Assembly: GCF_030063245.1 (NCBI RefSeq)
Contig: NZ_JASISR010000001.1
Coordinates: 1-64,000 of the forward strand
Direction: 5' to 3'
Length of the DNA stretch: 64,000 bases
DNA from: Paenarthrobacter sp. PH39-S1
GTDB taxonomy: Bacteria > Actinomycetota > Actinomycetes > Actinomycetales > Micrococcaceae
Made by a program: the position numbers and the translations under genes. Positions within the stretch are counted from its first letter, which is position 1; every line of letters begins with the position of its first letter. Below are positions 28,177 through 58,757 of the stretch, piece by piece. The notes beneath the pieces were generated by a model, which worked only from the letters and a program-made list of their open reading frames with translations, was not told where the DNA came from and did no database searches.

Positions 28177-28188
28177 TGTGCGGCTCCG

Positions 28189-29363: not shown

Positions 29364-29474
29364 GCACGGCTGACCGTCGCTTCACCGGTTACAGTGAAGG
29401 TTCCGTTGCCGGGAATCCGGGCCAGCACGTCGGGGCCGGTCACCCGCGCAGGTCGGACAGCGAGTGGAATAGAT

Positions 29475-30997: not shown

Positions 30998-31039
30998 ACG
31001 TAGATTCTTGCACAGAAATGCGCCGCTGCCGGCCGAGCC

Positions 31040-31068: not shown

Positions 31069-31186
31069 ATTAGCGTCAATTGCCAGCTTTGCATACCGCC
31101 TTCGCTTAAGCCCATTGCCTTGGGTTCTTCAGGGCGCAAGCGTGACCGGTAAGATGGCTGGCAACCCAGCGAATAAGGAAGGATTC

Positions 31187-31615: not shown

Positions 31616-31720
31616 ACCGATGACTTGGCCGCCGCTATGCGGACGGCCTTCATCGACGCGCACTGATACCGTGCGCCGGCTATCGAGTGAGACTCTAGTT
31701 TTTAGTGAAGGACTCTACCA

Positions 31721-32350: not shown

Positions 32351-32433
32351 GTCAGGGCACGCTGTCACGGCCAGTGGCGCCCGGGGATCCGGGTCGCCAC
32401 TGGGACACCTTCTTTCCTTCCTTGGAGCCCGCT

Positions 32434-33321: not shown

Positions 33322-33325
33322 CTCG

Positions 33326-34075: not shown

Positions 34076-34113
34076 AATTCCCCAATCATCATCATTAGTA
34101 AGGAATGGTTATC

Positions 34114-35676: not shown

Positions 35677-35688
35677 GACAGGCCGACC

Positions 35689-38512: not shown

Positions 38513-41127
38513 CGACGTGTCCTTTGCGATACCAGGTGGAGGAGGTCCCCGAGGGAAGCGTCCGGGACATAGGCTTTGGCGATGGCTTGGCCGATCGCCG
38601 GCAGGGCGGCCGGATCGGGGTAACACATATACAAGGGTACGTAGCGTGGATGGAACTTTGACTTGAAGGCAAACAGGGACCGGAATCCGTACACCGGTTC
38701 CAGCGTGCGGCCCAGCCAGTCCAGCACCCGTTCCAGGGACCCCGGCGGCGGTCTCTCGCCGACCCCGCCGACCCCGCCGACCCCGTCGGCCGCATCGCGT
38801 CCGGCGCCTGCACCGGTTACGACTCCGGAATCCGTGTCCTGGCTGGCGGAGACGGATTTTGCCAGCGGTGCACCGGAAAGGCTCACTGTAGTGTAGCCCT
38901 CGGCTTGGAAGTCCAGGGCGGCTTGGGCGATGAGGACTTCGATGCTGTTTTTGAAGCCGGTGGACCGCCGGCGCATGAAGTCCAAGGTCCAGCCGGTGAT
39001 TGCCCCGTTGATGTAGGCGGGCAACCAGGACGCGACGGCGTGCACGGTCCGGTCACCGTCGATGACGAGCAGGCATCTGACTTCGTCGTCGTTGAGTTCC
39101 TCGAGGCCGCCAAGAGTGAACCCCATTTCGGGAAGTTTTTTGTCTGCGACCCATTCTTCGGAAATGCTTCTGATCTGGTCCACGATCGCCAGCGGCGCCG
39201 TCGGGTAGCGGATCCATTCGGTGTGGACGCCCTCGCGCGCGGCCTTGTTCAGGGCGGTACGAATGTCCTGAAATTTTTTCCCGGTGAATACCAACGCACC
39301 CAGATCCAGTACTGTTTCCTCGGCGATCTGCACGCTCTGCCATGATTGAGCCGCCGCGGCATCGCGGTGGGCTGAGGTGACGGAGTACAGGCACGGGGTC
39401 CAGCCCATCGCCGCGCAATGCTCGGAAAACTCGCGCAGGATCCGCTGGCGCTCCGGGGCCGCACTGATCGGGTCGCCCGTGGTCAGGGCGATACCGGCCA
39501 GCACACGGTAGGGCACATACCCGGTTCCGTCGGCGGAGAACCAGTATGAGTTGCCCGGCCACAGACCCATCCAGCCGATGGCGCCGCCGTCGTTCGCTTT
39601 CAGCAGGCCGCGGGCACGTTCCCGGCCGGTCTGCGCGCCGTGGTCGCTCCGGAGGCGGAAGGAGGCGAGCAGCTGGGCCGACACGACTGCCCAGAACAGG
39701 ACGCCGGTCCATTCGTAGAGCACGTCGGCCGCTGGTCCGTTGGGCAGGAAATCCGGGAACAGCTGCAGCGTCACTCCGACGGGGGCCAGCCGTTGCGGGA
39801 AATCGCTGATCAGCCGCCCAGGATCGGACGCCGGGCTGAACTGTCCGGCCACGATCAGCCCGCCTCCGAGATAGACTGCCGCGGCACCAGCCGCGGTGAG
39901 CGCAACCTTCCCTGCCAAAGCCCGGTACTGCTTTGCGGGCGCGACGAGGGGAAACAGCCGTCGCGTCATCAGCAGGAGGACGACGACGGCGGCCGGCTCC
40001 AGGACCGGGATTACCAGATCAGCTATAAAGGGCGCGCTCCCGGCGGCCTGCGTGGCTTCGCCCACATCACGGCCGTGGCGCAGGGAGGTGAAGGAGACTA
40101 CGGCGAGCCCCATCAGCCCAAGCTGCAGCAGCAGCGTACCCCACCAGGCAAACCGGCGGCCCAGCCGGAGCCCGTAACAAAACACCAGCAGCAGCAGTGA
40201 GGGCACACATGCCATGATGACTGACCCAATCCCGGAGCGAAGCTGGAGCTGGGCCACGGCGCACTCGCGGGCAGTCGCAGCGGTTTGGCATATCGCCCGG
40301 ATGGCCGTCGGATCGGTGTCCTGTACTCCGGTGAAAAGTTCCCCCAGCACGGCGAAGGGGCCGTTCGCGTTGGCGGATACGGCTGCCAGCGGGGGACCAG
40401 CAGCCGCTGCGGCGCAGATCAGCGCGATTAGGATCCTGCTCTCCCGGATCGACGCGGACGGCACGGCCCGCGCGTGCGGGGTGCGGTAGCGGAGCCTGCC
40501 CGCGAGATAGCCGGCTACTGCTGCGGCGAGCAGCATAATGGTGACCATGGCACCGTTGAAAAGGACCATGGTGCTGAGCAGGATGAATCCGCTCAGCCGC
40601 CAGCGCCGCCGCCACATGGTGTCCAGGGATGCGGTCGATGCCATGGCGGCCCCGACCACGGCCAGGGACGGGCCGCCGAATCCGGCCGTGGCCAAGACGG
40701 AGGCCCAGTCCGGGAAAGCGAATGCAACGACACCGGCCATGGCGAAGCCGCCGAGGACTCCGACGAGGTGGCCGGACACCATAGCCACCGCGTAGTGTGC
40801 CGTGCCCAACTGCCGTTCGGCGAATATTCCCAGCCCGAGCAACGCTGCAGTTGTCCAGAGGTAGGTGCTCAAGTCCGGAGCCCACAGTAGAGACAGCACC
40901 ACAGACCAGGGATGGGAACCGGTGGTGGAAGGATTGGCCAGCACCGCATCGGCGAGGTGACCGCGCGGTCCGCGGACGATGCTTGTGGTCCCCAGCGCTA
41001 CCGCCCACATCATGACCAGCAAAGCGAATGTCAGCGGGGCGTGGCGGATCCCATCCGCGGCCATGTCCCCGATCCACTGCCAGACGCGCCGCGCGGCAGC
41101 AAGGCGCGGGTGCATGGTCTGTAGCAC
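38509..41127 (-). CDS. Rhomboid-like membrane protein fused to a DUF2156 (MprF-type) aminoacyl-lipid synthase domain
   Basis: An 872-residue protein. Residues about 20-230 form a rhomboid-like six-helix unit with the serine-protease-type motif GPSLAVVG (G-x-S-x4-G); helices continue to about residue 530. The C-terminal DUF2156 domain (GGAIGWMGLWPGNSYWFSAD, DPISAAPERQRILREF, YTTVSLSGAPLAK, YGFRSLFAFKSKFHPRYVPL) is the catalytic part of MprF-like enzymes that add amino acids to phosphatidylglycerol. A Gly-rich insert (GVGGVGGVGERPPPG) lies near the C-terminus. GTG 41127 has AGGAGGA 6-7 bases ahead. It is coupled to the downstream esterase. Whether the rhomboid part is active is uncertain. Confidence 0.8.
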   Translation of the reverse strand: MLQTMHPRLAAARRVWQWIGDMAADGIRHAPLTFALLVMMWAVALGTTSIVRGPRGHLADAVLANPSTTGSHPWSVVLSLLWAPDLSTYLWTTAALLGLGIFAERQLGTAHYAVAMVSGHLVGVLGGFAMAGVVAFAFPDWASVLATAGFGGPSLAVVGAAMASTASLDTMWRRRWRLSGFILLSTMVLFNGAMVTIMLLAAAVAGYLAGRLRYRTPHARAVPSASIRESRILIALICAAAAAGPPLAAVSANANGPFAVLGELFTGVQDTDPTAIRAICQTAATARECAVAQLQLRSGIGSVIMACVPSLLLLVFCYGLRLGRRFAWWGTLLLQLGLMGLAVVSFTSLRHGRDVGEATQAAGSAPFIADLVIPVLEPAAVVVLLLMTRRLFPLVAPAKQYRALAGKVALTAAGAAAVYLGGGLIVAGQFSPASDPGRLISDFPQRLAPVGVTLQLFPDFLPNGPAADVLYEWTGVLFWAVVSAQLLASFRLRSDHGAQTGRERARGLLKANDGGAIGWMGLWPGNSYWFSADGTGYVPYRVLAGIALTTGDPISAAPERQRILREFSEHCAAMGWTPCLYSVTSAHRDAAAAQSWQSVQIAEETVLDLGALVFTGKKFQDIRTALNKAAREGVHTEWIRYPTAPLAIVDQIRSISEEWVADKKLPEMGFTLGGLEELNDDEVRCLLVIDGDRTVHAVASWLPAYINGAITGWTLDFMRRRSTGFKNSIEVLIAQAALDFQAEGYTTVSLSGAPLAKSVSASQDTDSGVVTGAGAGRDAADGVGGVGGVGERPPPGSLERVLDWLGRTLEPVYGFRSLFAFKSKFHPRYVPLYMCYPDPAALPAIGQAIAKAYVPDASLGDLLHLVSQRTRR

Positions 41128-41371
41128 GGTCTGTCCTCCTCCTAAATCGCGATAAATCGCGGAACATCTGTCATGTCGGCTGCGGTTATCACAACTATGC
41201 GGGACAGCCTCTCGGACGCTACCACCGTTCTCGCCGCCGGCTTCGTCACGCCGCAATGATGCGGTACCGAACCCTCCCTTTCGAGTCTCCGCCATGGTTC
41301 CTAAGGGAAGGCTGAGACACCGGGAACGAGCAGGACGGTCGAGCGGCGCGTTCAAACCGGCGAGGCCGATT

Positions 41372-42880
41372 TTAAGGGAGGGGGCTGACCAGCAGAAATG
41401 CCAGAACCGGATTCGCGGATAGACCAAAACACACTGAAACTATGCTCAGGATAACCGCGGACCGGGCACTCCACGGGACGGGAACAGCGTCTGGGTCGAC
41501 CGGACCGCCCTCGTCCGTTTCCGCGTCACCTGCCGCCTCAGGTTCGGCCCCGCCTCGGTCCACCCGTTCGATGGCCTTCCCCGAGGGCGACGATTGGAAG
41601 AGCAGGTAGATCCAGCGCAGATAGTAAAAGACGCTGGCCACGGAGTTGATCAATGCGAGCACCACCAGCCAGCCGAATCCCGCGTCGAGCGCGGCGGTGA
41701 AGGCGGTGAGTTTGCCGACGAAGACGGCGGTGGGAGGCGTGCCGATCAGCCCGAACAGACAGAAGATTAGGCTCAGCGCCAGCCATCGGTGCCGGCGGAA
41801 AAAGCCGCGGTAATCGTCCAAGGTCCGTAGCGTGGGGAACGCACAGACGACGGCGAAGGCACCGAGATTGGTGACGGTGTAGCCGAGCAGGTAGAACAGC
41901 AGGCTGGGCAGGGCAAGCTCGGAATGCCCGACGGCGGCGGTCACCATCAGCAGATATCCGACCTGGCTGATGGTGGAGTAGGAGAGCAGGCGCAGCACGC
42001 GGGCCTGAAAAAACGCGGCCAGGTTTCCGAGTGTCATGGTCAGGGCCGCCAGCAACGCCAGTATCAGCGGCCACGCCGTCGGCACTCCAGTCAGTGAACT
42101 GAGCCGGAAGAGTGCCACGAGAGCGCCGATCTTGGGAATCGTGGAGATGAACGCGGCGGCCGGCCCGGTGGTGCCGTCGATGGCGTCCGGTACCCAGAAA
42201 TGCGCCGGTACGGCGCCGGCTTTGAACAGCAGCCCGGCGGCAACGGCCAGCAGCCCGACGGCGGCGGCTCCCGCGGGTGCATTGGGCAAGGTGCGGGTCA
42301 GGCCGGCATAGGTGGTGCTCCCGCCGACGCCGAACAGCACCGTGATCCCCACCAGCAGCAGCACGCCGAACAGTGCGCCCATCAGGTAGTACTTGAGCAT
42401 GGCCTCGGTGCCGGCGGAGTCCTTGGCGAATCCCACCAGGGCGTAGAGCGGAATGCTGGCGAGCAGATAGCCGGCTCCCAGCACCAGCAGGTCGCTGGCG
42501 CCGGCCAGGACCAGCGTCCCGAGGGCCCCAAGCAGCAGCAGAACGTAAAACTCCGATTCCCTTTTGTGACCGCCGAACCGTCCGCCGGCCAGCACCAGGA
42601 CGACGGCGGTACCGGCCAGTACCGCTAGGCGGGTCGTGCTCAGGGAGGTGTCAATGGTGAAAGTAGCCGCCGCGGTCACTTCCGCGGGCCGGGATGTTCG
42701 GGCCACAGACAGGATCAGTGCCGCTCCAACGGCCGCCAGCGCGATCCAGCGGGACAGATGCTGCCGGCGCCTCGGGAGCCAGCTGCCCAGTAGCAGGATG
42801 ACAACGGCGGCCAGCGCCACGATGATCTCTGGCGCCAGGGCTGCGAGACTGATGGCGTCCCCCGCCGGCATTCCATTCAC
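41372..42880 (-). CDS. nuoN: Complex I-like subunit NuoN
   Basis: A 502-residue antiporter-like membrane subunit with about 14 helices. The proton-channel lysine regions are conserved: LLFKAGAVPAHFWVPDAIDG (Lys in helix 7) and STIPKIGALVALFRL (helix 8). The length matches NuoN. It is last in an eight-gene operon; its start overlaps the nuoM stop by 4 bases. In full complex I this subunit pumps protons; here the whole NADH arm is missing, so what drives it is open. Confidence 0.93.
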   Translation of the reverse strand: MNGMPAGDAISLAALAPEIIVALAAVVILLLGSWLPRRRQHLSRWIALAAVGAALILSVARTSRPAEVTAAATFTIDTSLSTTRLAVLAGTAVVLVLAGGRFGGHKRESEFYVLLLLGALGTLVLAGASDLLVLGAGYLLASIPLYALVGFAKDSAGTEAMLKYYLMGALFGVLLLVGITVLFGVGGSTTYAGLTRTLPNAPAGAAAVGLLAVAAGLLFKAGAVPAHFWVPDAIDGTTGPAAAFISTIPKIGALVALFRLSSLTGVPTAWPLILALLAALTMTLGNLAAFFQARVLRLLSYSTISQVGYLLMVTAAVGHSELALPSLLFYLLGYTVTNLGAFAVVCAFPTLRTLDDYRGFFRRHRWLALSLIFCLFGLIGTPPTAVFVGKLTAFTAALDAGFGWLVVLALINSVASVFYYLRWIYLLFQSSPSGKAIERVDRGGAEPEAAGDAETDEGGPVDPDAVPVPWSARSAVILSIVSVCFGLSANPVLAFLLVSPLP

Positions 42881-44529
42881 GGGGCAGCCGCAGCGACGAG
42901 GACGATCAGCGCGTGCGCCGCGGGCTCGATCAGATCCAGCAGGAATCGCGGCAAAACCCCGACGACGATGGCCAGCACCAGCAGGGGAGCGACCGAGAGC
43001 AGCTCGCGCGGGCGCAGATCACCCGGCGTTCCAGCACTCAATAATCCAGCACTCGGCGCGCCAGACTCCAACTGCTCCGCCGTTGGCTGCCGCACCGGTC
43101 CGAAGAACATCTGCGCCAGCATCCGCAGCAGCAGGGCCGCGGTGATCAGGATGCCCAGCAGGGCCAGCGCAGTGGGAACGGGTGCGGCTTCCAGGCTGCC
43201 CGTGAAGATCTGGAACTCCGCGATGAACCCGGAGAGGCCGGGCAGGCCCAGGGAGCCGAAGACGGCGACGGCGGTGAGTCCGGCAAACCGGGGGGCGCCG
43301 CCGGCGAGGCCTCCGTAGGCGGACATCTCGTAGGTGTGACCGCGTTCAAAGAGCGCCCCTGCCAGCAGGAACAGTGCCCCGGTCAGAAGTCCGTGGCTGA
43401 GCATTTGGGTCACTGCGCCCGTGACGGCAAGGTTGGCGGCGTGGGGATTGCTTCCCGCGGCGAGACCCGCAGCTCCGAGGCCCAAAATGATGTAACCCAT
43501 GTGATTCACCGAGGTATAGGCCACCATCCGCTTGAAGTTGGTCTGCGCCATGGCTACCAGCGCGCCGTAGAGCACGGAGACCAGACCGACGATGACGAAG
43601 CCCATGGCGTAGCTGCGCCACGGACCGGGCAGGATGGGCATGGCGATCCGGACGAAGCCGAAAGTCCCCATTTTGAGCAGCACCCCGGCCAGGATCACCG
43701 AGCCCGGCGCCGGGGCGTCCGTGTGCGCCGGCGGCAGCCAAGTATGGAATGGCACGGTGGGGGTCTTGACGGCCAGTCCGATGCTGATGGCCAGCAGTGC
43801 CAGGCCACCCAGCACCGGATCATTCTTCAGTGGATCCTGCCGGATGAGCTCGACGATGTCGAAAGTGTGCGGATCGCTGGCCAGGTACAGCACGATGAAA
43901 CCCAGCAGCAGGGCCAGTGAGCCGATGAAGGTGTAGAGGAAGAACTGCAGCGCCGAACGGACGGCACTCCCGTGACCCCAGACCGCAATAATGAAGTACA
44001 TGCCGACGATTGACAGGTCGAAGAAGATGAAGAACAGGATCAGGTCCAGGGAGACGAACAGCCCCAGGGACACGGTCTGCAGGAACAAGAACAGCGCGGC
44101 ATGCGCCCGGGGACGGTGCTCCTGGCGCACCGAATAGATGGCGCAGACGAGGAAAAGCAAAGCTGTCAGGGCGACCAGCGGGAGGGAAAGCCCGTCCACG
44201 CCCATGTGATATCCCGACCCCAAGGTGGGCATCCAGGCGAATTTCGTCTCATAGCCGATCGCGCCCGTCCCGGCACCGGCCTGGACCCCGGCACTCCCAC
44301 CGCTCCTGCCGCCGCCTGCCGCGTAATCGATCCACAGCGCTACTACTAAACCGAGGTCGACGGCGGCTGTCGCGATCCAGATCCATCCCACCAGCCGCCG
44401 TCGTGCTTCAGGGACCAACAACAGGGCGGCTCCGACCACGACCGGAAGAAACACGATGAAGGAGAGCACCGGCAGTTCAGGAAACACGGTCACCTCGGAA
44501 AACACGGTCACCTCGGAATACACAGTCAC
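42877..44529 (-). CDS. nuoM: Complex I-like subunit NuoM
   Basis: A 550-residue antiporter-like subunit. The channel block VKTPTVPFHTWLPPAHTDAP followed by APGSVILAGVLLKMGTFGFV is canonical, with the key lysines. The helix-8 region (AMAQTNFKRMVAYTSVNHMG) and helix-12 lysine region are present. The GTG start at 44529 overlaps the nuoL stop (GTGA). The first 20 codons contain three near-identical 18-bp units, each with its own GAGGTGA and GTG, so the true start may be any of three. The hydrophobic core begins at about residue 20. Confidence 0.94.
   Translation of the reverse strand: MTVYSEVTVFSEVTVFPELPVLSFIVFLPVVVGAALLLVPEARRRLVGWIWIATAAVDLGLVVALWIDYAAGGGRSGGSAGVQAGAGTGAIGYETKFAWMPTLGSGYHMGVDGLSLPLVALTALLFLVCAIYSVRQEHRPRAHAALFLFLQTVSLGLFVSLDLILFFIFFDLSIVGMYFIIAVWGHGSAVRSALQFFLYTFIGSLALLLGFIVLYLASDPHTFDIVELIRQDPLKNDPVLGGLALLAISIGLAVKTPTVPFHTWLPPAHTDAPAPGSVILAGVLLKMGTFGFVRIAMPILPGPWRSYAMGFVIVGLVSVLYGALVAMAQTNFKRMVAYTSVNHMGYIILGLGAAGLAAGSNPHAANLAVTGAVTQMLSHGLLTGALFLLAGALFERGHTYEMSAYGGLAGGAPRFAGLTAVAVFGSLGLPGLSGFIAEFQIFTGSLEAAPVPTALALLGILITAALLLRMLAQMFFGPVRQPTAEQLESGAPSAGLLSAGTPGDLRPRELLSVAPLLVLAIVVGVLPRFLLDLIEPAAHALIVLVAAAAP
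44477..44529 (-). repeat. 18-bp repeats at the nuoM start, duplicating ribosome site and start codon
   Basis: On the coding strand GAGGTGACxGTGTxTTCC occurs three times at 18-base spacing right at the nuoL/nuoM junction, encoding VTVYSE, VTVFSE and VTVFPE. Each copy contains GAGGTG followed by a possible GTG start. Confidence 0.7.
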
Positions 44530-46418
44530 CTCATGACGACGAATAGGACGGCAAGGACGGTCATTACAATCAGCGCCTGGGCGTAATACTGGTAAATTAG
44601 GCCGGTCTGCGGACGGCGGGCGGAGCGCGCCAGCTTCCGCACTACTGAGGTGAGGCCGCCGACGGCGCCGCTGAGCCGGCGCTCCAGCCGCAGGTCAGTG
44701 AGCGTGGCGGCTTTCAAGACAAGCACCGCCGCCGCGTCGACGCTGCGGGCCAGCATCCGGTCGTCGAACCGGGCCAGCGAAACCGCGAGCGCCATGGTCG
44801 GGCGGGAGATGAGCACGGTCGCGGCGTGTTCCAGGCCGAGCCAGTCACCCGACAGGCCCGTCCCCCCCGCCGCCGGCACACCCAACAGCGTGCCCTCGCC
44901 GGCCAGCCGCCGGGTTTGCTGGCAATAAATCCATACGGTGACGGCGAGGGCCACAAGTCCCGAGACTGCCAGTTCCCACGGCGCCGGGCCGCCGATATTC
45001 GGCAGTCCGAGGAACTCCTGCCACCATTTCCCGATGGACGGCACACCGAAAAGACCAAGTAGCACCGCTGCTGCGGCGAGGACGGGCATCGGCAGCAGCA
45101 CGGCGGTGGGGAGGGCACGGCGGCGTTTTCCGGGCGCTGGTTGCGGCTTTGCCCAGACCACGGCCAGCGCCTTAGCCGCGTAGGCTGCGCTCACGGCGGC
45201 GGCGGCAAGCCCGACGACGTAGAGCGCGGGGGATTGCCGCAGAACGCCGGCGAGGACCGCGTCTTTGGCGGTCCAGATGGATAGCGGCGGCAGGCCGCCC
45301 AGCGCGAGGACACCCAGGGTGAAGGTGATTCCAGCGGTCCGGTACCCGCCTACAGAGCCGTGCGTACCTCCCCGTGCGACGCCGCGAAGTTCCAGCAGAT
45401 CCTTGGTTCCCAGGTAACTCAGCCAGGCTCCCGCCACCAGGAAAAGCAGGGATTTGACCGCTGCATGGGCCACGAACTGGGCGCCGCCGCCGACGACGCT
45501 TCCGGCGCCGGCGGCGAGCACGATGAAGCCGATCTGCGAACAGGTGGAGGCGGCCAGCAGCTGTTTGAGGTCTCGCTGCGCGAAGGCGACGGCGCCCAGC
45601 AGCAGCGCGGTCAACGCACCGATCCAGGCCACCGCGGCGCCCAACCATCCGGTGGCGGCCATCCCGGGTTCGATCCGCAGCAGCAGATACCCGCCGGCGG
45701 CAACCATGGTGGCCGAATGCAGCAGAGCTGAAACGGGGGAGGGTCCGGCCATGGCGTGCGAGAGCCAGAAACTAAAGGGCAGCTGTGCGGACTTCCCCAG
45801 GGCGGCCAGGGCCAATCCGGCCAGAGCCACATCCCGCCAGCCGCTCGGCATCCCGGCGAGGGCATCCAGGCGCAGCCCTGCGGCCCCACCGGCCAGGGCT
45901 GCACCCGCGGCCAGATACATCCCCAGATCCGCCGTCCGCGTGGTGATGAACGCCAGGGTTGCGGATTTGACCCGTCCCGCGTCCGGCCACCAGTATCCGA
46001 TCAGCGCATAGGAGACGGCCCCCATCACCTCCCAGGAGCCGAGCAGCGTCAAAGTCCCCGTCGACGTGACCGTGATCAGCATGGCGGCAACGAAAAGCAG
46101 CATGAGACCGAAAAACCGTGCCCTCGCCTCCTGCCGCCCGATGTCAGCGCTGGAGAAGACGACGACGGCCAGAAAGATCGCGGACACCGTCATCACTGCC
46201 AGCGCGGCAAGCCCGTCCACGGCCAGCCCGGCCGGGATGCCTTCCAACGCGGGTACTTCGACGGCGGGGCGCAGCACCGTCGCCGCGACAGCCAGGCCCA
46301 GCAGCGCCACGGCCACCGCAACGGCCAGCGGTGCAGCGGCGGCGTTGGCCCGGCGGCCGGACAGCAGCAGGATTCCTCCGGCCAGCGCCGGAAGAAGAAT
46401 CAGCAACCACAGGACCAT
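44526..46418 (-). CDS. nuoL: Complex I-like subunit NuoL
   Basis: A 630-residue antiporter-like subunit with the C-terminal lateral helix expected from its length. The channel motif GKSAQLPFSFWLSHAMAGPS continues PVSALLHSATMVAAGGYLLL; the key Lys and the HxxT element are conserved. Near the C-terminus come SLARFDDRMLARSVDAA and a final helix (ALIVMTVLAVLFVVM). It overlaps nuoM at the 3' end and follows nuoK by 5 bases. Presence of the full lateral-helix subunit implies a real piston/pump assembly rather than a lone antiporter. Confidence 0.95.
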   Translation of the reverse strand: MVLWLLILLPALAGGILLLSGRRANAAAAPLAVAVAVALLGLAVAATVLRPAVEVPALEGIPAGLAVDGLAALAVMTVSAIFLAVVVFSSADIGRQEARARFFGLMLLFVAAMLITVTSTGTLTLLGSWEVMGAVSYALIGYWWPDAGRVKSATLAFITTRTADLGMYLAAGAALAGGAAGLRLDALAGMPSGWRDVALAGLALAALGKSAQLPFSFWLSHAMAGPSPVSALLHSATMVAAGGYLLLRIEPGMAATGWLGAAVAWIGALTALLLGAVAFAQRDLKQLLAASTCSQIGFIVLAAGAGSVVGGGAQFVAHAAVKSLLFLVAGAWLSYLGTKDLLELRGVARGGTHGSVGGYRTAGITFTLGVLALGGLPPLSIWTAKDAVLAGVLRQSPALYVVGLAAAAVSAAYAAKALAVVWAKPQPAPGKRRRALPTAVLLPMPVLAAAAVLLGLFGVPSIGKWWQEFLGLPNIGGPAPWELAVSGLVALAVTVWIYCQQTRRLAGEGTLLGVPAAGGTGLSGDWLGLEHAATVLISRPTMALAVSLARFDDRMLARSVDAAAVLVLKAATLTDLRLERRLSGAVGGLTSVVRKLARSARRPQTGLIYQYYAQALIVMTVLAVLFVVMR

Positions 46419-46423
46419 ACCCG

Positions 46424-46729
46424 TTATCCCGCCAAATCCGAGGCGGAATCAGCCATGTCCACATCGCGGGCGCGGAAAATGGCGGTGGTGATGGCAAAGC
46501 CCATCGCCATCTCCACCGCCATCACGCTGATCGCCAGCAGGACCAGGACCTGCCCGTCCGGGCGTGCGTCCGTGGTGAAAAACCAGAAAGCGGCGGCGGC
46601 CACGATGATGCCGTTGATGGCCAGCTCCAGGCCCATCAGGATCATCACGATGGACTGCTGGCTCAGCAACCCGTAGAGCCCCACCGCAAAGAGCGCCGCC
46701 GCCAGCAGCAGGAACAGCTGGAGCATCAT
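46424..46729 (-). CDS. nuoK: Complex I-like subunit NuoK
   Basis: A 101-residue, three-helix subunit. Both membrane glutamates that are essential in NuoK are present: MGLELAING (helix 2) and SVMAVEMAMGFAI (helix 3). The length is normal. Its start overlaps the nuoJ stop by 4 bases. Conservation of these buried acids argues that the proton path of the membrane arm is still under selection. Confidence 0.95.
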   Translation of the reverse strand: MMLQLFLLLAAALFAVGLYGLLSQQSIVMILMGLELAINGIIVAAAAFWFFTTDARPDGQVLVLLAISVMAVEMAMGFAITTAIFRARDVDMADSASDLAG

Positions 46730-47283
46730 TTCCCCAATCCTCCCCGCACCGGATCATCGGGAGTTCGACGCCGCAGGTCATCGCCGAACCTGTCATAACG
46801 GCCGCGATGCGTGGAGAGCACGACGACGGCGATCATCGTCGCGAACAGTGCCAGACCGATGACGATCATCACCAGCATGTGCGGACCCATCAAGTCCATC
46901 CCGAGCGCGAGCGTAGGGTCCGACGTCGCCCGACCGCCGGACGGCCACGGGGTGAGGAGGGCGCCGGCCGCGAGCAAGACGAAGACGACGGCGGCAATGA
47001 CCAGTGACATGCGGTTGTTATGGACCATTTTCATCGGCATGAGCCCGGCGGGGTTCATCATGTACATGACCATGAAGACGGCCATGATCATCATTTCCAT
47101 CACCATCATCAGTATCACTAGGACCCCGAGGTAAGACAGGCCCAGCAGCAGGATGGGGATTGCCGCGACCACGAAGGACGCCAGCAGAGCGAGCGTCGCG
47201 CGCGCCATCGAGTCCACCCGGAACACCGCGATGCCCGCCGCCACCGCACCGACGGCGCAGATGAGGAAAATTACGGTCTGCAT
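46726..47283 (-). CDS. nuoJ: Complex I-like subunit NuoJ, Met-rich
   Basis: A 185-residue, five-helix subunit. Helix 3 and the loop after it read LVILMMVMEMMIMAVFMVMY then MMNPAGLMPMKMVHNNRM, with about 17 methionines in 40 residues, far more than ordinary NuoJ. The conserved tyrosine region (LLGLSYLGVLVILM) is present. ATG 47283 was used (MQTVIFLICAVGAVAAG). It lies 10 bases after nuoH. The methionine cluster could serve as a soft-metal (copper) path, but this is inference. Confidence 0.9.
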   Translation of the reverse strand: MQTVIFLICAVGAVAAGIAVFRVDSMARATLALLASFVVAAIPILLLGLSYLGVLVILMMVMEMMIMAVFMVMYMMNPAGLMPMKMVHNNRMSLVIAAVVFVLLAAGALLTPWPSGGRATSDPTLALGMDLMGPHMLVMIVIGLALFATMIAVVVLSTHRGRYDRFGDDLRRRTPDDPVRGGLGK

Positions 47284-47293
47284 CACTGCCTCC

Positions 47294-48232
47294 TCAGATC
47301 CATCCGACAAGCACAAAAATCGATACTGCCAGCGCCTGGAGAATCGTCAGCGGCAACAGCACCAGCCAGCTGATCTCGGTGAAACGCTCCATCCGCACCG
47401 CCGGCACCCGGCGGCCGATCCAGACCAGGACTGCCAGAACGGCTACCGTCTTGAACAGGACCCAGGGCCAGGCTGGCAGCAGCGGGCCCGCACCGCCGCC
47501 CAGGAACAGCGGAACGGCCATGGCGGCGCCGGCCGTCAGCAGCAGGTACCTCCCGGCGAGGAGCAGTAACCTGTCGATTCCGGAGATTCCTGCTGCAGCT
47601 CCGCCGGCGATTTCCCTGCCCACCGGCTGATTGAACGGGCCGAAGAAGGCGAACCCCAGCAAGGAGAGCAGGAAAACCAGGAACGCGGCAGGCATATACA
47701 CCACGAACCACAGGTGCCCGGGCTGTTCCTGCACGGCGGCAATGTCGCTGACCCGCAGGGATCCGGCGCCCACGGCCGCCGTGATCAGCGCGAACATATG
47801 CGGGAGTTCGTACGCTAACCCTTGTGCCAGGAAACGATTGGCTCCCACTAGGCCCCAGATGGAATTGGATCCCCATCCCACCATCCATACCGCGGCCCAG
47901 GCCAGCACTTCCATCGCATTGAACCAAACCACGCCAACCGACAGATCACTGATGGCGTGCTGTCCCAGCGGGATCACCAGGACGGCCAGCAGCGCCGCCA
48001 GCGGCAGCAGCCAGGTGCCGATCCTGGCGAGCAGGGCGTCCGCGCCGGGGGCGATGCTGCGTTGGCGGATGAGCAGCCGGGCGGTCTCCCGGCCAGGCCC
48101 CGCCAGCGCAGCCACCGGCGAGGTTCCGCTTTCGCGGGCGCTCAGGAACGCTGACCAGGCTGCAGCGGCGTAGGCCAGGACCCCCAGGAAAACGAAGCCG
48201 AGGATGATGTTCCACAGCAGCGCGCTAATCAT
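47294..48232 (-). CDS. nuoH: Complex I-like subunit NuoH, diverged quinone-site loop
   Basis: A 312-residue subunit of eight helices. The block GANRFLAQGLAYELPHMFAL then ITAAVGAGSLRVSDIAAVQE matches NuoH, as does LPAWPWVLFKTVAVLAVLVW. However the canonical cytosolic loop (AEtnRaPFDLPEaEsELVaGfn-EYsG), which lines the quinone chamber, is replaced by GFAFFGPFNQPVGREIAGGA, losing its conserved acidic residues. The N-terminal RxGPN region is also absent. Start ATG 48232 overlaps the end of the upstream gene by 8 bases. A normal quinone-reducing role is unlikely. Confidence 0.88.
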   Translation of the reverse strand: MISALLWNIILGFVFLGVLAYAAAAWSAFLSARESGTSPVAALAGPGRETARLLIRQRSIAPGADALLARIGTWLLPLAALLAVLVIPLGQHAISDLSVGVVWFNAMEVLAWAAVWMVGWGSNSIWGLVGANRFLAQGLAYELPHMFALITAAVGAGSLRVSDIAAVQEQPGHLWFVVYMPAAFLVFLLSLLGFAFFGPFNQPVGREIAGGAAAGISGIDRLLLLAGRYLLLTAGAAMAVPLFLGGGAGPLLPAWPWVLFKTVAVLAVLVWIGRRVPAVRMERFTEISWLVLLPLTILQALAVSIFVLVGWI

Positions 48233-49682
48233 TCGACTGCCCATGAGAATGCACAGGCGTCTGTCCGGACGGCACCTCAGGGGACAGCGGAGGGGACTGC
48301 TCCAGCCCCGCTGCCTGTGCCTGCAGCGCTTCGATGTCGGGATCCAGAGAGGCGACAATCAGACGAACCGCCGCCAGTTCCTGACCCGCGAGCAATTGAG
48401 GCAAGGCGGTCAACGCCACCCGGGCGGTCGCAGCGCGGCTGGCCAAGAGTGACCCGGGGTCCGGAACGGACGTGGACTGACCGGGGTCCGGGGCCCTGCC
48501 CAGAGCCAAGACCTCGTCCCCGGCAGCTCCGGATGCGGGATCGAGCACAATGGAAATGTCGTCCATCCAGCGCAGCACCCTTGCTGTGACGTCGCCGCAC
48601 AAGCACGACGACACGCCGTTATCGAGGTGCCCGAGACCCGCTATTGACCAGCGCAGCAACCGCGAACGCCGCACTGTGCGCAGCCAGCGCCGACATTGGG
48701 GATAAAGCGTGTGCCGCCTGGCAGCAGAGTCGGCTCGGGCGGCATCCGTCACGGCAGTGCCGGTCGAAGCAGTGTCAGTCGAAGAAGAATCTGTCACGGC
48801 GGCTTCGAGCAGTCCATCGCGCAACCGCCGTCCCGTGCGGGCAGCGGATTGCCAACCGGCCACGCTCAAGAACCGCTGCAGCGAATCCGTGGCCGCGGCC
48901 GCGCTGACGAGTTCGAGGTGTCCGGTCTGCTCCGACTGCGCGGCCCCACCGAGCAGGTCCGCCCAGAAGGAGGAGATCGCCCGGCCATCCGTGCCGCCGG
49001 CCAGCACGGAGATCTCCGCACATTGGGCAACGTCACCTTGCAGGACCAGCCGGACCACCAGCCCTGCTGGCCAATCCGGTAGTGCGGGTCCTAGCACCAG
49101 ATGGAGCTGATCGAGTTTTAACCCGTCGCGGTCAGCCCCGCGGTCCGCCATGGGCCGACCTCCCGGCAGTTCCATGTCCATATCCATACCGGACATGTTT
49201 GATTCTGAGCCGGCTATATCCATGCCGGACATGTCCGAGTCCGAGCCAGTATCCGACGTTGCCGTCTCGCTGTCTGCGTGTCCGCTCATGGCTGGGCCGC
49301 CGCCGTCGTCCTTGTTCATCGGCTCGGCAGCCATCGGAGCGACATCGGGCCGGTCGGCTTCGAGCCGACGGAACCCCTCCAGATCCCGGAGCGCCGCGGC
49401 GGCCGCGTCCAAGCAGTCGGAGGCGGCTTGCGCGGCAGAGATCACTATCCTGGCCCGGGGTGCTGGCAGCTGCTCCCAAACCCGCCCGGCCGCCTTGTTG
49501 AATTCCGGGCCGCCCTGGCCGCACAGCACGAGCATGTCCGCGTCCGCGGGGCTCAGCGCCTCGGACCAGCCGCGCTCGCGGACCAATTTTTCGACGGCCA
49601 GCCGCACCGACGTGGAACCGGGCGTAGTCATCAGGAAGGGGTGCGGCACGCCGAGGGCGAGCAGCCGGGCGATCAGCTCCAC
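48225..49682 (-). CDS. Diverged NuoB-NuoD-like fusion protein with Met-rich linker, no Fe-S cysteines
   Basis: A 485-residue soluble protein in the position of nuoB-nuoC-nuoD. Residues 44-88 (SPADADMLVLCGQGGPEFNK, AAGRVWEQLPAPRARIVISA) align with the NuoB stretch SPRQADVxIVAGTxTxKMAPALRRVYDQMPxPxxVIxMG. Residues 190-230 (LDQLHLVLGPALPDWPAGLV, VRLVLQGDVAQCAEI) match the start of NuoD (GPQHPxTHGVLRLVLxLDGE), and residues 424-455 (LTALPQLLAGQELAAVRLIV, ASLDPDIEAL) match its C-terminus. NuoB cluster cysteines and the NuoD His and terminal Cys motifs are missing. Residues 117-178 are Met/Asp-rich (MSGMDIAGSESNMSGMDMDM). GTG 49682 has AAGGAG 7 bases ahead and overlaps nuoA by 10 bases. The assignment is by eye. 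Confidence 0.7.
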   Translation of the reverse strand: MELIARLLALGVPHPFLMTTPGSTSVRLAVEKLVRERGWSEALSPADADMLVLCGQGGPEFNKAAGRVWEQLPAPRARIVISAAQAASDCLDAAAAALRDLEGFRRLEADRPDVAPMAAEPMNKDDGGGPAMSGHADSETATSDTGSDSDMSGMDIAGSESNMSGMDMDMELPGGRPMADRGADRDGLKLDQLHLVLGPALPDWPAGLVVRLVLQGDVAQCAEISVLAGGTDGRAISSFWADLLGGAAQSEQTGHLELVSAAAATDSLQRFLSVAGWQSAARTGRRLRDGLLEAAVTDSSSTDTASTGTAVTDAARADSAARRHTLYPQCRRWLRTVRRSRLLRWSIAGLGHLDNGVSSCLCGDVTARVLRWMDDISIVLDPASGAAGDEVLALGRAPDPGQSTSVPDPGSLLASRAATARVALTALPQLLAGQELAAVRLIVASLDPDIEALQAQAAGLEQSPPLSPEVPSGQTPVHSHGQSND

Positions 49683-50020
49683 CGGAAGGCTCCTTCCCGC
49701 CATGCATACACAACGGCGGCGAACAGCACGGCGAGAAAAGTGAACATTTCCACGACGGCGCCAGCTCCCATTCGGCCGACCACCAATACCCATGGATACA
49801 TGAAAACCATCTCCATATCGAAGGCCAGGAAGAGCACCGCCACCGTGTACCAGCGCACGTGGTACCGCGATACCGCATGCTCGCTCGGCGTCATGCCGGA
49901 CAGGAACGGCTCGCGGACCAGAGGTTTGCTGACCACCCGCACGGATGCCGAAATGGCACAGACCGCCAGGATGACTGCCACGGCTATGGCCAGAGCCATC
50001 AGAGCCAGTCCGAATTCCAC
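49673..50020 (-). CDS. nuoA: Complex I-like subunit NuoA
   Basis: A 115-residue, three-helix subunit. The NuoA signature YHVRWYTVAVLFLAFDMEMVFMYPW has the conserved acidic pair in FDME. An extra basic/polar stretch (RVVSKPLVREPFLSGMTPSE) fills the loop that in complex I helps form the quinone entrance and lacks the usual Cys. The GTG start has AGGAGG about 10 bases upstream. It is the first nuo gene and starts 57 bases downstream of copA with no convincing terminator between them. Confidence 0.92.
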   Translation of the reverse strand: MEFGLALMALAIAVAVILAVCAISASVRVVSKPLVREPFLSGMTPSEHAVSRYHVRWYTVAVLFLAFDMEMVFMYPWVLVVGRMGAGAVVEMFTFLAVLFAAVVYAWREGAFRWS

Positions 50021-50077: not shown

Positions 50078-52456
50078 TTATTTCCCGAACCGCCGCAGCC
50101 GCAGCGAGTTCGTGACCACCAATACCGAGCTGGCAGCCATCGCCGCGCCGGCAATCATCGGATTCAGCAGCCCCAGCGCGGCGACCGGGATGCCGACGGC
50201 GTTGTAGAAAAATGCCCAGAAGAGGTTTGTCTTGATGGTGCCGAGGGTTTTGCGGGACAGCTCGATGGCCTGCGCCACTTGCGCGAGATCATTACCCATC
50301 ACCGTCAGGTCCGCGGCCTGGATCGCAACATCCGTGCCGGATCCCATCGCGATCCCCAGATCGGCTTGCGCAAGCGCTGCTGCGTCATTGACTCCGTCCC
50401 CGGCCATCGCCACCGTGGCGCCTTCGGCCTGGAGGCGCTTGACGGCGTCGACCTTCCCTTCCGGCAACACCCGGGCATAGACATCCGCCGGCGCGATGCC
50501 GACGGCGGCGGCCACCTGAGCGGCGGCGGCGGCGTTGTCTCCGGTGAGCAGGATAGGCCGCAAGCCCAGCGTCTTGAGCCGGGCAATGGCGGCCGCTGAT
50601 CCGTCCTTGATGGTATCCGCCAGGCTGATGATGCCCTCCGGGGTTCCGTCCACGGCAACCCAGATGGCGGTGGCGCCCGACTGCTCCTCATTTAGCAGCG
50701 TGTCCTGCTGGGCAGGAGTTGTCGCGATCCCATTGTCGCCAAGCCAACCTGCCCGCCCGGCCACCACGATGTGCCCGTCAACCGTGCCACGGACGCCACC
50801 GCCGGGAGCCGACTCGAACCCGGTCACCGCAGCGAGGCCTGCTGCCGCTCCCGGCGCGGCTGACGGTCCTCCCGCGGCTGCGGCCGTGATGGCGCGGGCG
50901 ATCGGATGCTCGCTGGCGGCTTCGACAGATCCCGCCAGACGCAGCACCTCGGCTTCCCCGCGCTGACCCAGCGCGATGGTGCGGGTGACGGCGAGTTTTC
51001 CGTGGGTGACGGTGCCGGTCTTATCCAACAGGATGGTATCGACCGTGCGGGTGTCTTCCAGAACCTGCGGTCCCTTGATCAGAATACCCAGCTGCGCGCC
51101 GCGACCGGTCCCCGTGAGCAGGCCGACCGGCGTGGCCAGTCCGAGGGCGCAGGGACACGCGATGACCAGGACGGCGACGGCGGCGGTGAAGGCGCTCTGG
51201 ATGTCGCCGCTGAGCAGCAGCCACAGGACAAACGTCAGGATGGCGAGGCCGAGCACGATCGGTACGAAGACGGCGCTGATCCGGTCCGCCAACCGGGCGA
51301 TCGGTGCCTTGCCGGACTGGGCCTGACTGACCAGACGTCCCATTTGGGCCAGCGTCGTTTCGCTGCCCACGCGGGTGGCCTTGACCAGCAGCCGTCCGGA
51401 CGTATTAATCGTGGCGCCGGTGACCGGGTCATCCACGTCCACGTCGACCGGCATCGATTCGCCGGTGATCAGGGAGGCGTCGACGGCGGAACGGCCCTCG
51501 ACGACGATGCCATCAGTGGCAATCTTTTCACCTGGCCGGACTATGAAGATGTCCTCTGCCATGAGCTCTGCGGCCGGAACGCTGACCTCGGCGCCGTCGC
51601 GGATCACCGTGGCATCTTTAGCACCCAGGCTCAGCAGTGCCTTGAGCGCATCCCCGGCCTTAGCCTTGGCCTTCGCTTCCAGGTAGCGGCCCAAGAGCAG
51701 GAAGGTCACCACTATTGAGGCGACCTCAAAATACAGTTCCGCGTGACCGTCCATGTCGGTGTGTGCGGTCATGGCCGGGTCCGATGCGAGCATGACGGCA
51801 GAAAACACATAGGACGCGATCACACCCAGGGAGACGAGCGTGTCCATCGTGGAGGAGAAGTGGCGCGCGTTGATGGCCGCAGCGCGGTGAAACGGCCAGG
51901 CCGACCAGGTCACCACGGGCAAGGCGAGTACGCCGACCACCCACCCCCAGTTGGTGAACTGCAGAGGGGGAAACATGGAAATCAGGAAGACCGGCACGCT
52001 CAGCGCTGCGGCCAGGAGCAGCCGTGGCCGCAGCTGCTCCGCAGCGGTGCGCGCAGGGGTCCCGGCGCCTGTTTCCGGTGATCGACCAAGGCCTGTTTTC
52101 GGTGACCAACTAAGGCCGCCAGGGGCCGAAACCGGTGACCGACCAAGTGCGCCCGCGGCCGCGTGGACATCCGAAGTTGCGCCGCCGTCGTCCGTCGCGC
52201 TCGCCCTATGCGGTACGCCCTTGAGCGTGGCCTTGTACCCTGTCGCATTCACCGTGTCGACAATCTGCTGATCGGTCAAACCGTCCGGGACGGTGACGCG
52301 CGCCGATTCAAGCGGTAGATTCACAGCCGCCGTTACGCCGTCGAGCTTCCCCAGCTTGCGTTCCACACGGCCGACACAGGACGCGCAAGTCATGCCCTCG
52401 ATGTCGAGTTCAATGATCCGCGTCAGCGGTTGGTGAAGCAGGTTTTCGGTACTCAC
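50078..52456 (-). CDS. copA: Copper-translocating P1B-type ATPase
   Basis: A 792-residue Cu(I) exporter. An N-terminal heavy-metal domain has MTCASC (residues 22-27). After a 35-residue low-complexity insert with GRSPVSAPGGLSWSPKTGLG-like repeats come eight membrane helices. Core motifs are intact: TGES, CPC in VIACPCALGLATP, DKTGTVTHG, the SEHPIARAI His-Pro, GDGVNDAAAL, and the Cu-site residues YN in FFYNAVGIP and MAASS near the end. It is third in csoR-copZ-copA and is directly followed by the complex I-like operon. Confidence 0.97.
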   Translation of the reverse strand: MSTENLLHQPLTRIIELDIEGMTCASCVGRVERKLGKLDGVTAAVNLPLESARVTVPDGLTDQQIVDTVNATGYKATLKGVPHRASATDDGGATSDVHAAAGALGRSPVSAPGGLSWSPKTGLGRSPETGAGTPARTAAEQLRPRLLLAAALSVPVFLISMFPPLQFTNWGWVVGVLALPVVTWSAWPFHRAAAINARHFSSTMDTLVSLGVIASYVFSAVMLASDPAMTAHTDMDGHAELYFEVASIVVTFLLLGRYLEAKAKAKAGDALKALLSLGAKDATVIRDGAEVSVPAAELMAEDIFIVRPGEKIATDGIVVEGRSAVDASLITGESMPVDVDVDDPVTGATINTSGRLLVKATRVGSETTLAQMGRLVSQAQSGKAPIARLADRISAVFVPIVLGLAILTFVLWLLLSGDIQSAFTAAVAVLVIACPCALGLATPVGLLTGTGRGAQLGILIKGPQVLEDTRTVDTILLDKTGTVTHGKLAVTRTIALGQRGEAEVLRLAGSVEAASEHPIARAITAAAAGGPSAAPGAAAGLAAVTGFESAPGGGVRGTVDGHIVVAGRAGWLGDNGIATTPAQQDTLLNEEQSGATAIWVAVDGTPEGIISLADTIKDGSAAAIARLKTLGLRPILLTGDNAAAAAQVAAAVGIAPADVYARVLPEGKVDAVKRLQAEGATVAMAGDGVNDAAALAQADLGIAMGSGTDVAIQAADLTVMGNDLAQVAQAIELSRKTLGTIKTNLFWAFFYNAVGIPVAALGLLNPMIAGAAMAASSVLVVTNSLRLRRFGK

Positions 52457-52507: not shown

Positions 52508-52738
52508 TTACGCCTCGTTGGCGACGACCAGGTACCCGGCCTCGGCGACAGCTTCGCTGATTTCTTCCGGTGAAATGGTCAAATGAGACGTCACGGTGGC
52601 GGTGGAAATCCCGCCTGCCGTCAGATCAACGCTGACGTCTTCGACGCCCTTGAGGGACTTGAGTTCTTCGGTGACCGCCGAGACGCAGTGCCCGCAGGTC
52701 ATGCCGGAAATGCTGACGGTGGTGGTGATGGCGTTCAT
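52508..52738 (-). CDS. copZ: Copper chaperone CopZ (heavy-metal-associated domain)
   Basis: A 76-residue HMA-fold chaperone with the Cu(I) site GMTCGHC and a ferredoxin-like beta-alpha-beta-beta-alpha-beta pattern (SAVTEELKSLKGVEDVSVDL, ISEAVAEAGYLVV). It would carry Cu(I) to CopA. ATG 52738 has GAAGGA about 6 bases upstream. It lies between csoR and copA in one operon, in the common actinobacterial order. Confidence 0.95.
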   Translation of the reverse strand: MNAITTTVSISGMTCGHCVSAVTEELKSLKGVEDVSVDLTAGGISTATVTSHLTISPEEISEAVAEAGYLVVANEA

Positions 52739-52781
52739 GATGGTTCCTTCTTGCCGGTAGTCATCGGTGTTACTGGTAGCG

Positions 52782-53117
52782 CTAGCGCAAAAGGCGGCCG
52801 ATCGCGTCGGTGGCTTCCTTGACCTTTGCCTGGACAATCTCCGGGTCCCCGGCTTTGTCCGATTCGGCGGCCGCGCCCACGACGCAATGAGCTATGTGGT
52901 CTTCGATCAAACCAAGGCTCAATGCGTGAAGCGCTTTATTAATTGCCGCCACCTGAGTGAGGATGTCGATGCAATATTTGTCCTCATCCACCATGCGGGC
53001 GATTCCGCGGACCTGCCCTTCAATCCGCTTTAGCCGGCGCAGGTACGCATCCTTGTCGGTGGTGTAGCCGTGGTCGAGGTGTTGGTCGACCGTCTCGCTC
53101 GTGGTGGTGCCGCTCAT
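52782..53117 (-). CDS. csoR: Copper-sensing repressor CsoR
   Basis: A 111-residue four-helix-bundle repressor that leaves DNA on binding Cu(I). The ligand set is complete: C49 in KYCIDIL, H64 in KALHALSLGL and C78 in IAHCVV. The secondary-shell residues of the family (RRLKRIEGQVRGIARM) are present. It starts the csoR-copZ-copA operon and lies 33 bases from a palindromic operator in its own promoter; a second palindrome of the same architecture stands before the DUF6153-lgt series at 31.04 kb. Confidence 0.96.
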   Translation of the reverse strand: MSGTTTSETVDQHLDHGYTTDKDAYLRRLKRIEGQVRGIARMVDEDKYCIDILTQVAAINKALHALSLGLIEDHIAHCVVGAAAESDKAGDPEIVQAKVKEATDAIGRLLR

Positions 53118-53147: not shown

Positions 53148-53174
53148 AGTATACCCCTATAGGGTATATGTCGA
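53148..53174 (-). promoter_or_regulatory. csoR promoter with CsoR-type operator
   Basis: TATACCC-CTATA-GGGTATA (53150-53168) is a 7-base inverted repeat with a 5-base spacer. On the minus strand it overlaps a possible -10 TATACT (53153-53148), with TCGACA (53174-53169) as a weak -35 at 15 bases. CsoR bound here would repress its own operon until copper is present. Confidence 0.78.
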
Positions 53175-58749: not shown

Positions 58750-58757
58750 GGCTGCTC

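Follow-up and report, generated by a model that had tools for sequence, protein, structure and literature searches.

The window analysed here, a stretch of 64,000 nucleotides from Paenarthrobacter sp. PH39-S1 (contig NZ_JASISR010000001.1, positions 1 to 64,000), carries at 41372-50020 eight open reading frames (ORFs) on the minus strand that resemble the membrane part of respiratory complex I. An initial annotation had described them as a tightly packed series nuoA-[BD-like]-H-J-K-L-M-N, and all eight ORFs were found in that order and on that strand; we call the second gene and its product X. The ORFs overlap by 4-10 nt at the A/X, X/H, J/K, L/M and M/N junctions and are spaced by 5-10 nt at K/L and H/J. 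With the exception of X, every one of them was assigned to its complex I family by Pfam (E 3e-12 to 3e-62).

49673-50020, minus strand: NuoA-like subunit (PF00507, 2.7e-25), with D68 and E70 retained and H48, H54, M71 and M74 in addition
48225-49682, minus strand: X, a fusion of NuoB, a His/Met-rich insert and NuoD, in which the iron-sulfur (Fe-S) ligand set is not conserved
49119-49334, minus strand: His/Met-rich insert of X, about residues 117-188, terminating in MSGMDMDMELPGGRPMADRGADRDGL (from the alignment of ten X proteins)
47294-48232, minus strand: NuoH-like subunit (PF00146, 2.2e-42)
46726-47283, minus strand: NuoJ-like subunit (PF00499, 3.4e-12), with an invariant methionine series in and past transmembrane helix 3 (TM3)
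46424-46729, minus strand: NuoK-like subunit (PF00420, 2.3e-16), with E35 and E73 retained and M29, M70 and M74 gained
44526-46418, minus strand: NuoL-like antiporter subunit (PF00361, 5.9e-41; NCBIfam NuoL, 3.2e-81)
42877-44529, minus strand: NuoM-like antiporter subunit (TIGR01972, 2.4e-140)
41372-42880, minus strand: NuoN-like antiporter subunit (TIGR01770, 1.3e-92)

Directly downstream of nuoN, a large ORF (38509-41427, minus strand) encodes a phosphatidylglycerol lysyltransferase C-terminal domain; its drawn start falls inside nuoN, and it may be co-transcribed with the operon.

Ancestry and altered residues of X

The window's X alone gave nothing convincing against Pfam (one listing, at E 0.11) and a weak NuoB hint against NCBIfam (E 0.027). 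An alignment of ten X sequences, from the window, Arthrobacter terrae and eight plasmid copies, was used as a search profile. Within the taxonomic family, 38 of 395 genomes, counting the host's own, contained relatives, and within the phylum the profile matched 57 of 396 genomes at E <= 1e-5; as read from the table, 27 of these 57 matches cover just a NuoB-like block of 39-55 residues. L131 and L152, the two block-only matches that were opened, proved to be ordinary nuo loci; such matches are in themselves an indication that X begins with a NuoB part. L131 (G687:C23) was kept out of the family; at this ordinary nuoA-nuoB locus, L/M/N-type subunits occur as two sets inside 20 kb. The same operon was present, as far as the contig extends, in 57 of 58 regions examined, including L113, the IS-disrupted copy L013. 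A scan of genome contigs returned one locus, that of A. terrae, and a scan of viral contigs with the same ten-sequence alignment returned no relative.

With L081, L113 and L106 dropped as duplicates of L002, L013 and L001, the family set comprised 67 non-duplicate loci. A search with NuoJ added three plasmids of Pseudomonadota, on which all eight genes recur in unchanged order. Broken or insertion sequence (IS)-disrupted copies occur on plasmids of Rhodococcus, Ornithinimicrobium and Pseudarthrobacter (L003, L005, L013 and L104, whose X lies in two frames).

Divergent members of the family made the C-terminal half of X recognisable. Their X proteins matched the Pfam 49-kDa subunit (L124, 1.4e-13; L122, 3.7e-13; L127, 5e-13; L129, 9.6e-11; L130, 4.3e-10), some also matching Pfam NuoB weakly (E 0.003-0.05); of the eight proteins scanned, the X proteins of L007 and L114 had no Pfam match. 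In HHalign comparisons, the whole X family matched NuoB at 94% (E 1.1e-7) over 40-48 columns, spanning the central SP..AD to PR block only. Divergent X matched NuoD at 98.5% (E 3.8e-15, 262 columns) and the whole family weakly (56%, E 1.1e-4), while the window's own subgroup, compared alone, gave no match (probability 0.5%), the references being only 3 sequences for NuoD and 14 for NuoB. Because its own subgroup fails against NuoD, the NuoD ancestry of the window's X rests on these intermediates and on a search of all PDB chains with a 17-member X profile. That search returned 91 sequences at E <= 1, the best 60 of which are by name all NuoB- or NuoD-type (complex I, NDH, membrane-bound hydrogenase and formate hydrogenlyase). 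NuoB chains align to positions 31-83, with a best E of 2.1e-9, and NuoD chains to 184-374, with a best E of 8.1e-6. The Pfam matches of divergent members, the HHalign comparisons and the PDB profile matches together indicate that X is a NuoB fused to a NuoD. The fusion proposed in the initial annotation at 48225-49682 was thus borne out by significant profile matches, for NuoD through divergent relatives.

We then compared residues across 62 X proteins, leaving L104, L107 and the broken copies L003, L005 and L013 outside this set; the X of L107, a single ORF, has the same leucine described below and a His/Met-rich insert. No Fe-S cysteine quartet was conserved among the 62, judged at what we take to be the positions of the cluster N2 cysteines in NuoB. 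The histidine of the NuoD GPxHP motif, presumably a quinone-binding residue, is replaced by leucine in 56/62 and retained in 1/62. By these residues X is predicted to be redox-dead. The initial annotation had claimed that X lacks any cluster cysteine or active-site His/Cys motif; this stands in that no set is conserved and the histidine is all but gone, but not literally, as the window's X contains six cysteines, and the best cysteine column of the family is conserved in 40/62. With no cysteine column above that count, X has no conserved CxxC pairs of the kind that bind NiFe in the hydrogenase large subunit, and a membrane-bound [NiFe] hydrogenase or formate hydrogenlyase was rejected.

The insert between the two halves exceeded the rest of X in combined His and Met content in all 59 proteins measured (median 18% vs 3.8%), three of the 62 having no motif match. 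Examples range from long HGE repeats in Pseudonocardia to MSGMDMDM in the window. Many divergent X and all three from Pseudomonadota have a short insert (GQGGEGMMGG and similar), with a median of 8% in the divergent group. In L124 (7973-9703) and L129 (3900-5843), a complete HMBD heavy-metal-binding domain (Pfam 9.5e-15 and 1.3e-11) and His-rich stretches lie between the NuoB and NuoD halves, and it is these proteins that come nearest to an intermediate form whose NuoD can still be recognised. Among the short-insert forms, six of the eight actinobacterial NuoJ inspected (L117, L118, L119, L122, L123 and L127) have a His-rich tail, as do 3/3 Pseudomonadota NuoJ; those of L126 and L128 are without one. 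Overall, His-rich NuoJ C-termini occur in L002, L117, L118, L119, L122, L123, L127, L193, L194 and L195, mostly where the X insert is short. The metal-binding segment thus seems to have swapped subunits, and X itself is probably metal-binding.

The host genome is estimated to be 99.4% complete. A search of it found no separate gene for NuoC, NuoD or NuoF, and the sole NuoH is the window copy. NuoE, NuoG and NuoI are not among the eight operon proteins by Pfam, although no genome-wide search for these three was made. The initial annotation's statement that NuoC, E, F, G and I are missing therefore holds genome-wide for NuoC and NuoF, and for E, G and I within the operon. The sole NuoB-family match in the genome is a 352-aa protein beside a HypB-like gene, which we take to be a [NiFe]-hydrogenase small subunit. 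At that locus (G000:C59, L006, 303-2316), the HypB-like gene is followed by the candidate small-subunit gene, and hydrogen oxidation by the host is probable.

The NuoM tree contains a split (support 0.94) between all 61 family copies, those of Pseudomonadota included, and the 19 ordinary NuoM and 19 NuoN; the NuoN root being unreliable, only splits were used. The three Pseudomonadota copies fall inside a group of 12 (support 1.0), the rest of which consists of divergent copies from actinobacteria, and this nesting suggests transfer. The loci do retain a full membrane arm, as would an incomplete complex I that still respires with the help of NuoBCDEFGI from other parts of the genome. We nevertheless consider that explanation hardly credible: it is already contradicted by the absence of NuoC, NuoD and NuoF from a genome whose only NuoB-family gene is hydrogenase-like, by the supported NuoM split, and by the loss of the NuoJ tyrosine in 62/62 family copies (below). 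The separate nuoBCDEFGI set that the initial annotation had named as a possible refutation did not materialise for nuoC, nuoD and nuoF. Its comparison with actinobacterial partial nuo clusters lacking EFG did not hold, as the operon is also without NuoC and NuoI and the NuoM split sets the family apart. That ion flow is coupled to something other than NADH:quinone chemistry, as it had supposed, is very likely.

Copper genes and operators at the operon

The following features of the window relate the operon to copper.

50078-52456, minus strand: copA, P1B ATPase with an HMA domain and a CPC motif, 57 nt upstream of nuoA
52508-52837, minus strand: copZ-like HMA protein (PF00403, 9.7e-16)
52782-53117, minus strand: CsoR-type metal-sensing repressor (PF02583, 6.9e-30)
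53152-53166: CsoR-type operator TACCC-N5-GGGTA ahead of csoR-copZ-copA-nuoAXHJKLMN, also present in A. terrae locus L001
31050-31064: second perfect CsoR-type operator, heading the convergent copper cluster
31040-36603, plus strand: convergent copper cluster, starting with DUF6153
31721-32350, plus strand: DUF305, in the same cluster
32374-33321, plus strand: BNR/F510_1955-like, in the same cluster
33326-34075, plus strand: CcdA/DsbD, in the same cluster
34105-35676, plus strand: multicopper oxidase, in the same cluster
35689-36603, plus strand: Lgt, in the same cluster

We take the CPC signature of the copA product to indicate the Cu(I) type, and the TACCC-N5-GGGTA palindrome to be the CsoR operator pattern. 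Because just 57 nt separate copA and nuoA, the simplest reading is that csoR-copZ-copA-nuoAXHJKLMN forms an eleven-gene copper operon; a sigma-70/terminator scan of the gap found no terminator, such scans being weak in actinobacteria. CopM of Synechocystis, which binds copper, is one of the DUF305 proteins (PMC4335983).

Other genes adjoin the copper genes, all on the minus strand within 26578-31066: they encode a histidine kinase paired with a response regulator (26578-28902), a cation diffusion facilitator (29475-30635) and, at 30635-31066, an ArsR-like ORF. At 55033-61135 (minus strand), two sulfatases lie with ABC transporter genes for two permeases and one binding protein, a locus that probably serves the uptake of sulfated glycans and has nothing to do with copper.

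Taken by themselves, the two operator sites of the window (<=1 mismatch) are within chance, as 21 of 100 shuffles reach two. For this reason, the comparative data carry the operator argument. We searched the family loci with CopA, CopZ, CsoR, multicopper oxidase, DUF305 and BNR queries taken from the window and plasmid loci (phmmer, at least 40 bits), and used as controls 20 ordinary nuo loci and 40 random regions hand-picked at round positions, all but two of which (38) come from genomes that also carry the family. Copper genes were found at 42/67 family loci (CopA in 22, DUF305 in 25), compared with 0/40 random regions and 0/20 ordinary nuo loci, with family loci spanning 3.9-30.9 kb (the window 64 kb) and random regions 19.9 kb each. 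Without the loci that supplied queries and those with X more than 90% identical, copper genes remained at 32/55 loci, and at 28/44 where at least 17 kb was available. In all but one of the 42 loci with a copper gene (41), the nearest one is no more than 3 kb away from the operon.

CsoR-type boxes (TACCC-N4-6-GGGTA) showed the same association. There were 47 in 1.41 Mb of family DNA, at 32/70 loci including the three Pseudomonadota, vs one in 0.80 Mb of random DNA; the L084 row of the operator alignment was not used. A box occurs within 500 bp upstream of nuoA in 17/65 loci, where 0.046 were expected from the random rate, and at 0/20 ordinary nuoA genes; it is present at nuoA in 5/25 loci without a copper-gene match.

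The Pseudomonadota plasmids provide an independent replication of the copper link, with other regulators. On the Halomonas sp. KO116 plasmid, copC, copD, an azurin-type protein, a response regulator and kinase, a multicopper oxidase and CopB sit about 5 kb or more upstream of the operon. The Acuticoccus plasmid has cueR, a P-type ATPase, a copper oxidase and a cupredoxin by the operon, and in the Roseivivax plasmid cueR directly follows nuoN, accompanied by a P-type ATPase and a multicopper oxidase. With a copper-type operator and copper genes both present at the operon, as expected of a member of a CsoR/copper regulon, it appears to be under copper control, and copper is most likely the "something else" to which ion flow is coupled, a link that the initial annotation did not mention.

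The direction in which copper would move has to be considered. The neighbouring multicopper oxidases and cupredoxin proteins require copper, and proton-driven uptake could supply it for the maturation of such cuproenzymes. The operon is, however, continuous with or beside csoR-copZ-copA in several loci, genes that respond to excess copper, and the Pseudomonadota copies likewise lie near cueR with a P-type ATPase or near a copper-resistance cluster; the metal-binding insert, moreover, is on the presumed cytoplasmic subunit. An importer therefore seems to us a distinctly remote prospect.

Rewritten coupling module and largely retained proton arm

To compare the membrane subunits, we set 57-64 family copies of each against 19-20 copies from the 20 ordinary actinobacterial nuo loci, excluding the broken copies L003, L005 and L013; NuoJ positions are given such that 3 is to be subtracted for the count from ATG. 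Methionine content is raised 1.8-3.3-fold in A, J and K (5.2% vs 2.2%, 9.2% vs 2.8% and 9.3% vs 5.1%, respectively) and lowered in the other four subunits (H, L, M and N). NuoJ has ten methionines that are invariant in 62/62 copies (M29, M62, M63, M67, M70, M74, M78, M87, M89 and M139), as are E66 and H91, and M79 is present in 61/62. Ordinary NuoJ (n=19) never has methionine at those positions except at M70 (3/19), and has tyrosine at the M63 position and alanine at the E66 position, each in 19/19. Thus, the tyrosine of the TM3 pi-bulge has become methionine in all 62 family copies, with a glutamate, E66, three residues past it; besides that tyrosine, ordinary complex I has hydrophobic residues where the invariant Met and His now stand. 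The invariant positions all hold in a ten-sequence set that includes the three Pseudomonadota. Alignment to solved NuoJ chains, with the TM3 limits as we assume them, placed M62-M79 on TM3 and M87-H91 past it. NuoA has gained M71, M74 and H54 (64/64) and H48 (61/64), and NuoK M29 and M70 (63/63) and M74 (59/63).

According to a review of complex I structures (PMC10212512), NuoA, J and K together with part of NuoH form the E-channel of complex I, NuoJ TM3 and its tyrosine mark the open/closed switch, and there is communication between the TM3-4 loop of NuoJ and the TM1-2 loop of NuoA. Since the Met, His and Glu changes fall in the A, J and K parts of the E-channel, the coupling module has been rewritten.

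These conserved changes bear on whether the operon might be a decaying complex I relic, for which the broken copies and the two-frame X of L104 would speak. Across the eight genes, the ratio of nonsynonymous to synonymous differences (pN/pS) ranges from 0.10 to 0.34, with its lowest values in J and K (window vs A. terrae, one genome pair), so that all eight look to be under purifying selection. The eight-gene order is the same across the phylum and in Pseudomonadota, and 12 NuoJ positions are invariant in 62/62 where ordinary NuoJ differs. Decay is already contradicted by these data, and we give it next to no weight.

The proton arm is for the most part retained. The initial annotation had noted that the NuoK glutamates and the NuoL, M and N lysines persist, and the family agrees: E35 (63/63) and E73 (62/63) in NuoK; K209, K285, K322 and K385 (57/57) in NuoL; K255 and K286 (58/58) and E438 (57/58) in NuoM, in which aspartate replaces another glutamate in 57/58; and K250 and K390 (58/58) and K220 (50/58) in NuoN. 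In NuoH, several acidic residues conserved in ordinary NuoH, presumably part of the quinone-site loop, are replaced.

Two further explanations would give copper another role. Cu(I) bound in X, in the place of cluster N2, might reduce quinone or be oxidised at the former quinone site, which would drive protons outward through the arm. The NuoH and NuoD scaffold is kept, so that a cavity probably remains, the Met and His ligands suit copper, and the arm is complete. Nevertheless, the GPxHP position is almost always leucine, the acidic residues of NuoH are replaced, the operon is without an electron-input subunit, and a methionine series running through NuoJ TM3 into NuoK would be superfluous for a reaction in the cavity. 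We regard such a redox pump as unlikely. Alternatively, Cu(I) bound to X or NuoJ could gate the arm and so adjust membrane energetics under copper stress without being moved, the operon acting as a proton valve or sensor. The helix that has been rewritten is exactly the one described in PMC10212512 as the complex I open/closed switch. A switch, however, needs one or two ligands, and ten invariant NuoJ methionines from 29 to 139, together with those of A and K, look like a path; gating alone is accordingly improbable in our judgement.

Proposed copper export and comparison with known systems

The loss of redox chemistry, the gain of a metal-binding part and a line of methionines, and the copper control point to a proton-driven copper pump and not to a respiratory enzyme. 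The reading we lean towards, giving it a little better than an even chance, is that the operon encodes a copper-controlled, redox-dead relative of complex I that would export Cu(I) on the proton-motive force as a Cu+/H+ antiporter. X, on the cytoplasmic face, would pick up Cu(I), which could enter at the quinone position beside the NuoA TM1-2 loop (H48, H54) and the NuoJ TM3-4 loop (M87, M89, H91) and travel along the NuoJ, K and A methionines to the outer face. Inward proton flow through NuoL, M and N would pay for this charge movement, as with Na+ in Mrp, and outside Cu(I) would be detoxified, presumably by the neighbouring multicopper oxidase and DUF305 (CopM-like) products. Whether this makes a new class of metal exporter, with a full proton arm serving as a Cu(I) pump, X as the acceptor and a methionine path in the E-channel, spread over Actinomycetota plasmids and chromosomes and Pseudomonadota plasmids, we consider evenly balanced.

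Several observations weigh against this reading. A post hoc test of whether the TM3 methionines share one face gave p values of 0.002, 0.014, 0.14 and 0.73 for four residue sets, and that they line one path is what we infer. One canonical glutamate of NuoN is lost (leucine in 54/58), so that the three proton channels may not all be intact. A single hit underlies the random box rate, and in 19/67 loci both copper genes and boxes are missing from the DNA available, several of these loci being truncated by contig ends. A CopA ATPase lies near the operon in the window and in 21 other loci of the 67; because CopA adjoins there, a second Cu(I) exporter is not obviously needed. Finally, an AlphaFold2 model of X from a two-row alignment had a mean pLDDT of 36.5 and a pTM of 0.22, and was discarded.

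We found no description of the operon in the literature, in a search that left most subscription journals outside. The word "copper" is absent from the main text of a survey of prokaryote complex I (PMC12361115), and the operon is not described in the available parts of PMC2751784, PMC6305408, PMC10212512, PMC7558416, PMC4335983 and PMC7419157. Its genes are annotated as NADH-quinone oxidoreductase subunits, for example in 17/18 plasmid records, which misleads metabolic models. If the export reading is true, bacterial copper export would have a new energy coupling alongside the known ATPases and RND pumps. It would also touch the long-standing question of how events at the NuoB/NuoD/NuoH site couple to distant proton channels: a natural relative in which redox chemistry has apparently been swapped for a metal ion, with its channels mostly retained, would test whether charge movement in the E-channel alone can drive the antiporters, or the reverse, which is the coupling that Mrp-based models propose.

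Compared with respiratory complex I (NDH-1), the operon has the seven membrane subunits with their channel Lys and Glu residues, and an X derived from NuoB and NuoD. It differs in that separate genes for NuoC, NuoD and NuoF are absent from the genome, no Fe-S set is conserved, and the GPxHP histidine and the NuoJ TM3 tyrosine are lost; its B/D subunits are fused around a metal-binding insert, its A, J and K are Met-rich, and its operators are of the copper type. Mrp is a Na+(K+)/H+ antiporter that likewise combines a complex I-type arm with the absence of redox chemistry (PMC7419157); its proposed cation path lies in the J/K region, Na+ leaves by a route that corresponds to the E-channel, and the key acidic residue of the NuoJ-equivalent TM3, a glutamate, occupies the place of the complex I tyrosine. 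The operon differs from Mrp in having NuoA, NuoH and X, and methionines instead of hard-cation ligands; with NuoA and NuoH present and no MrpB, E, F or G among the eight proteins by Pfam, an Mrp antiporter was rejected. The RND protein CusA, also found in copper-resistance loci, is proposed to pass Cu(I) along a methionine ladder (PMC7558416). Its fold and subunits are unrelated, and the likeness is one of analogy only.

The P1B-1 ATPase CopA shares the gene cluster in the window and the presumed task of removing Cu(I) from the cytoplasm, but is an unrelated, ATP-driven single polypeptide. The DAB (DabA/DabB) inorganic carbon pumps also join a NuoL-type subunit to a non-redox partner; they differ from the operon in having two subunits, another partner and another substrate. 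By descent the operon belongs to the complex I superfamily, but it lacks defining features of complex I, of Mrp and of the membrane hydrogenases, and a new function is likely, if unproven.

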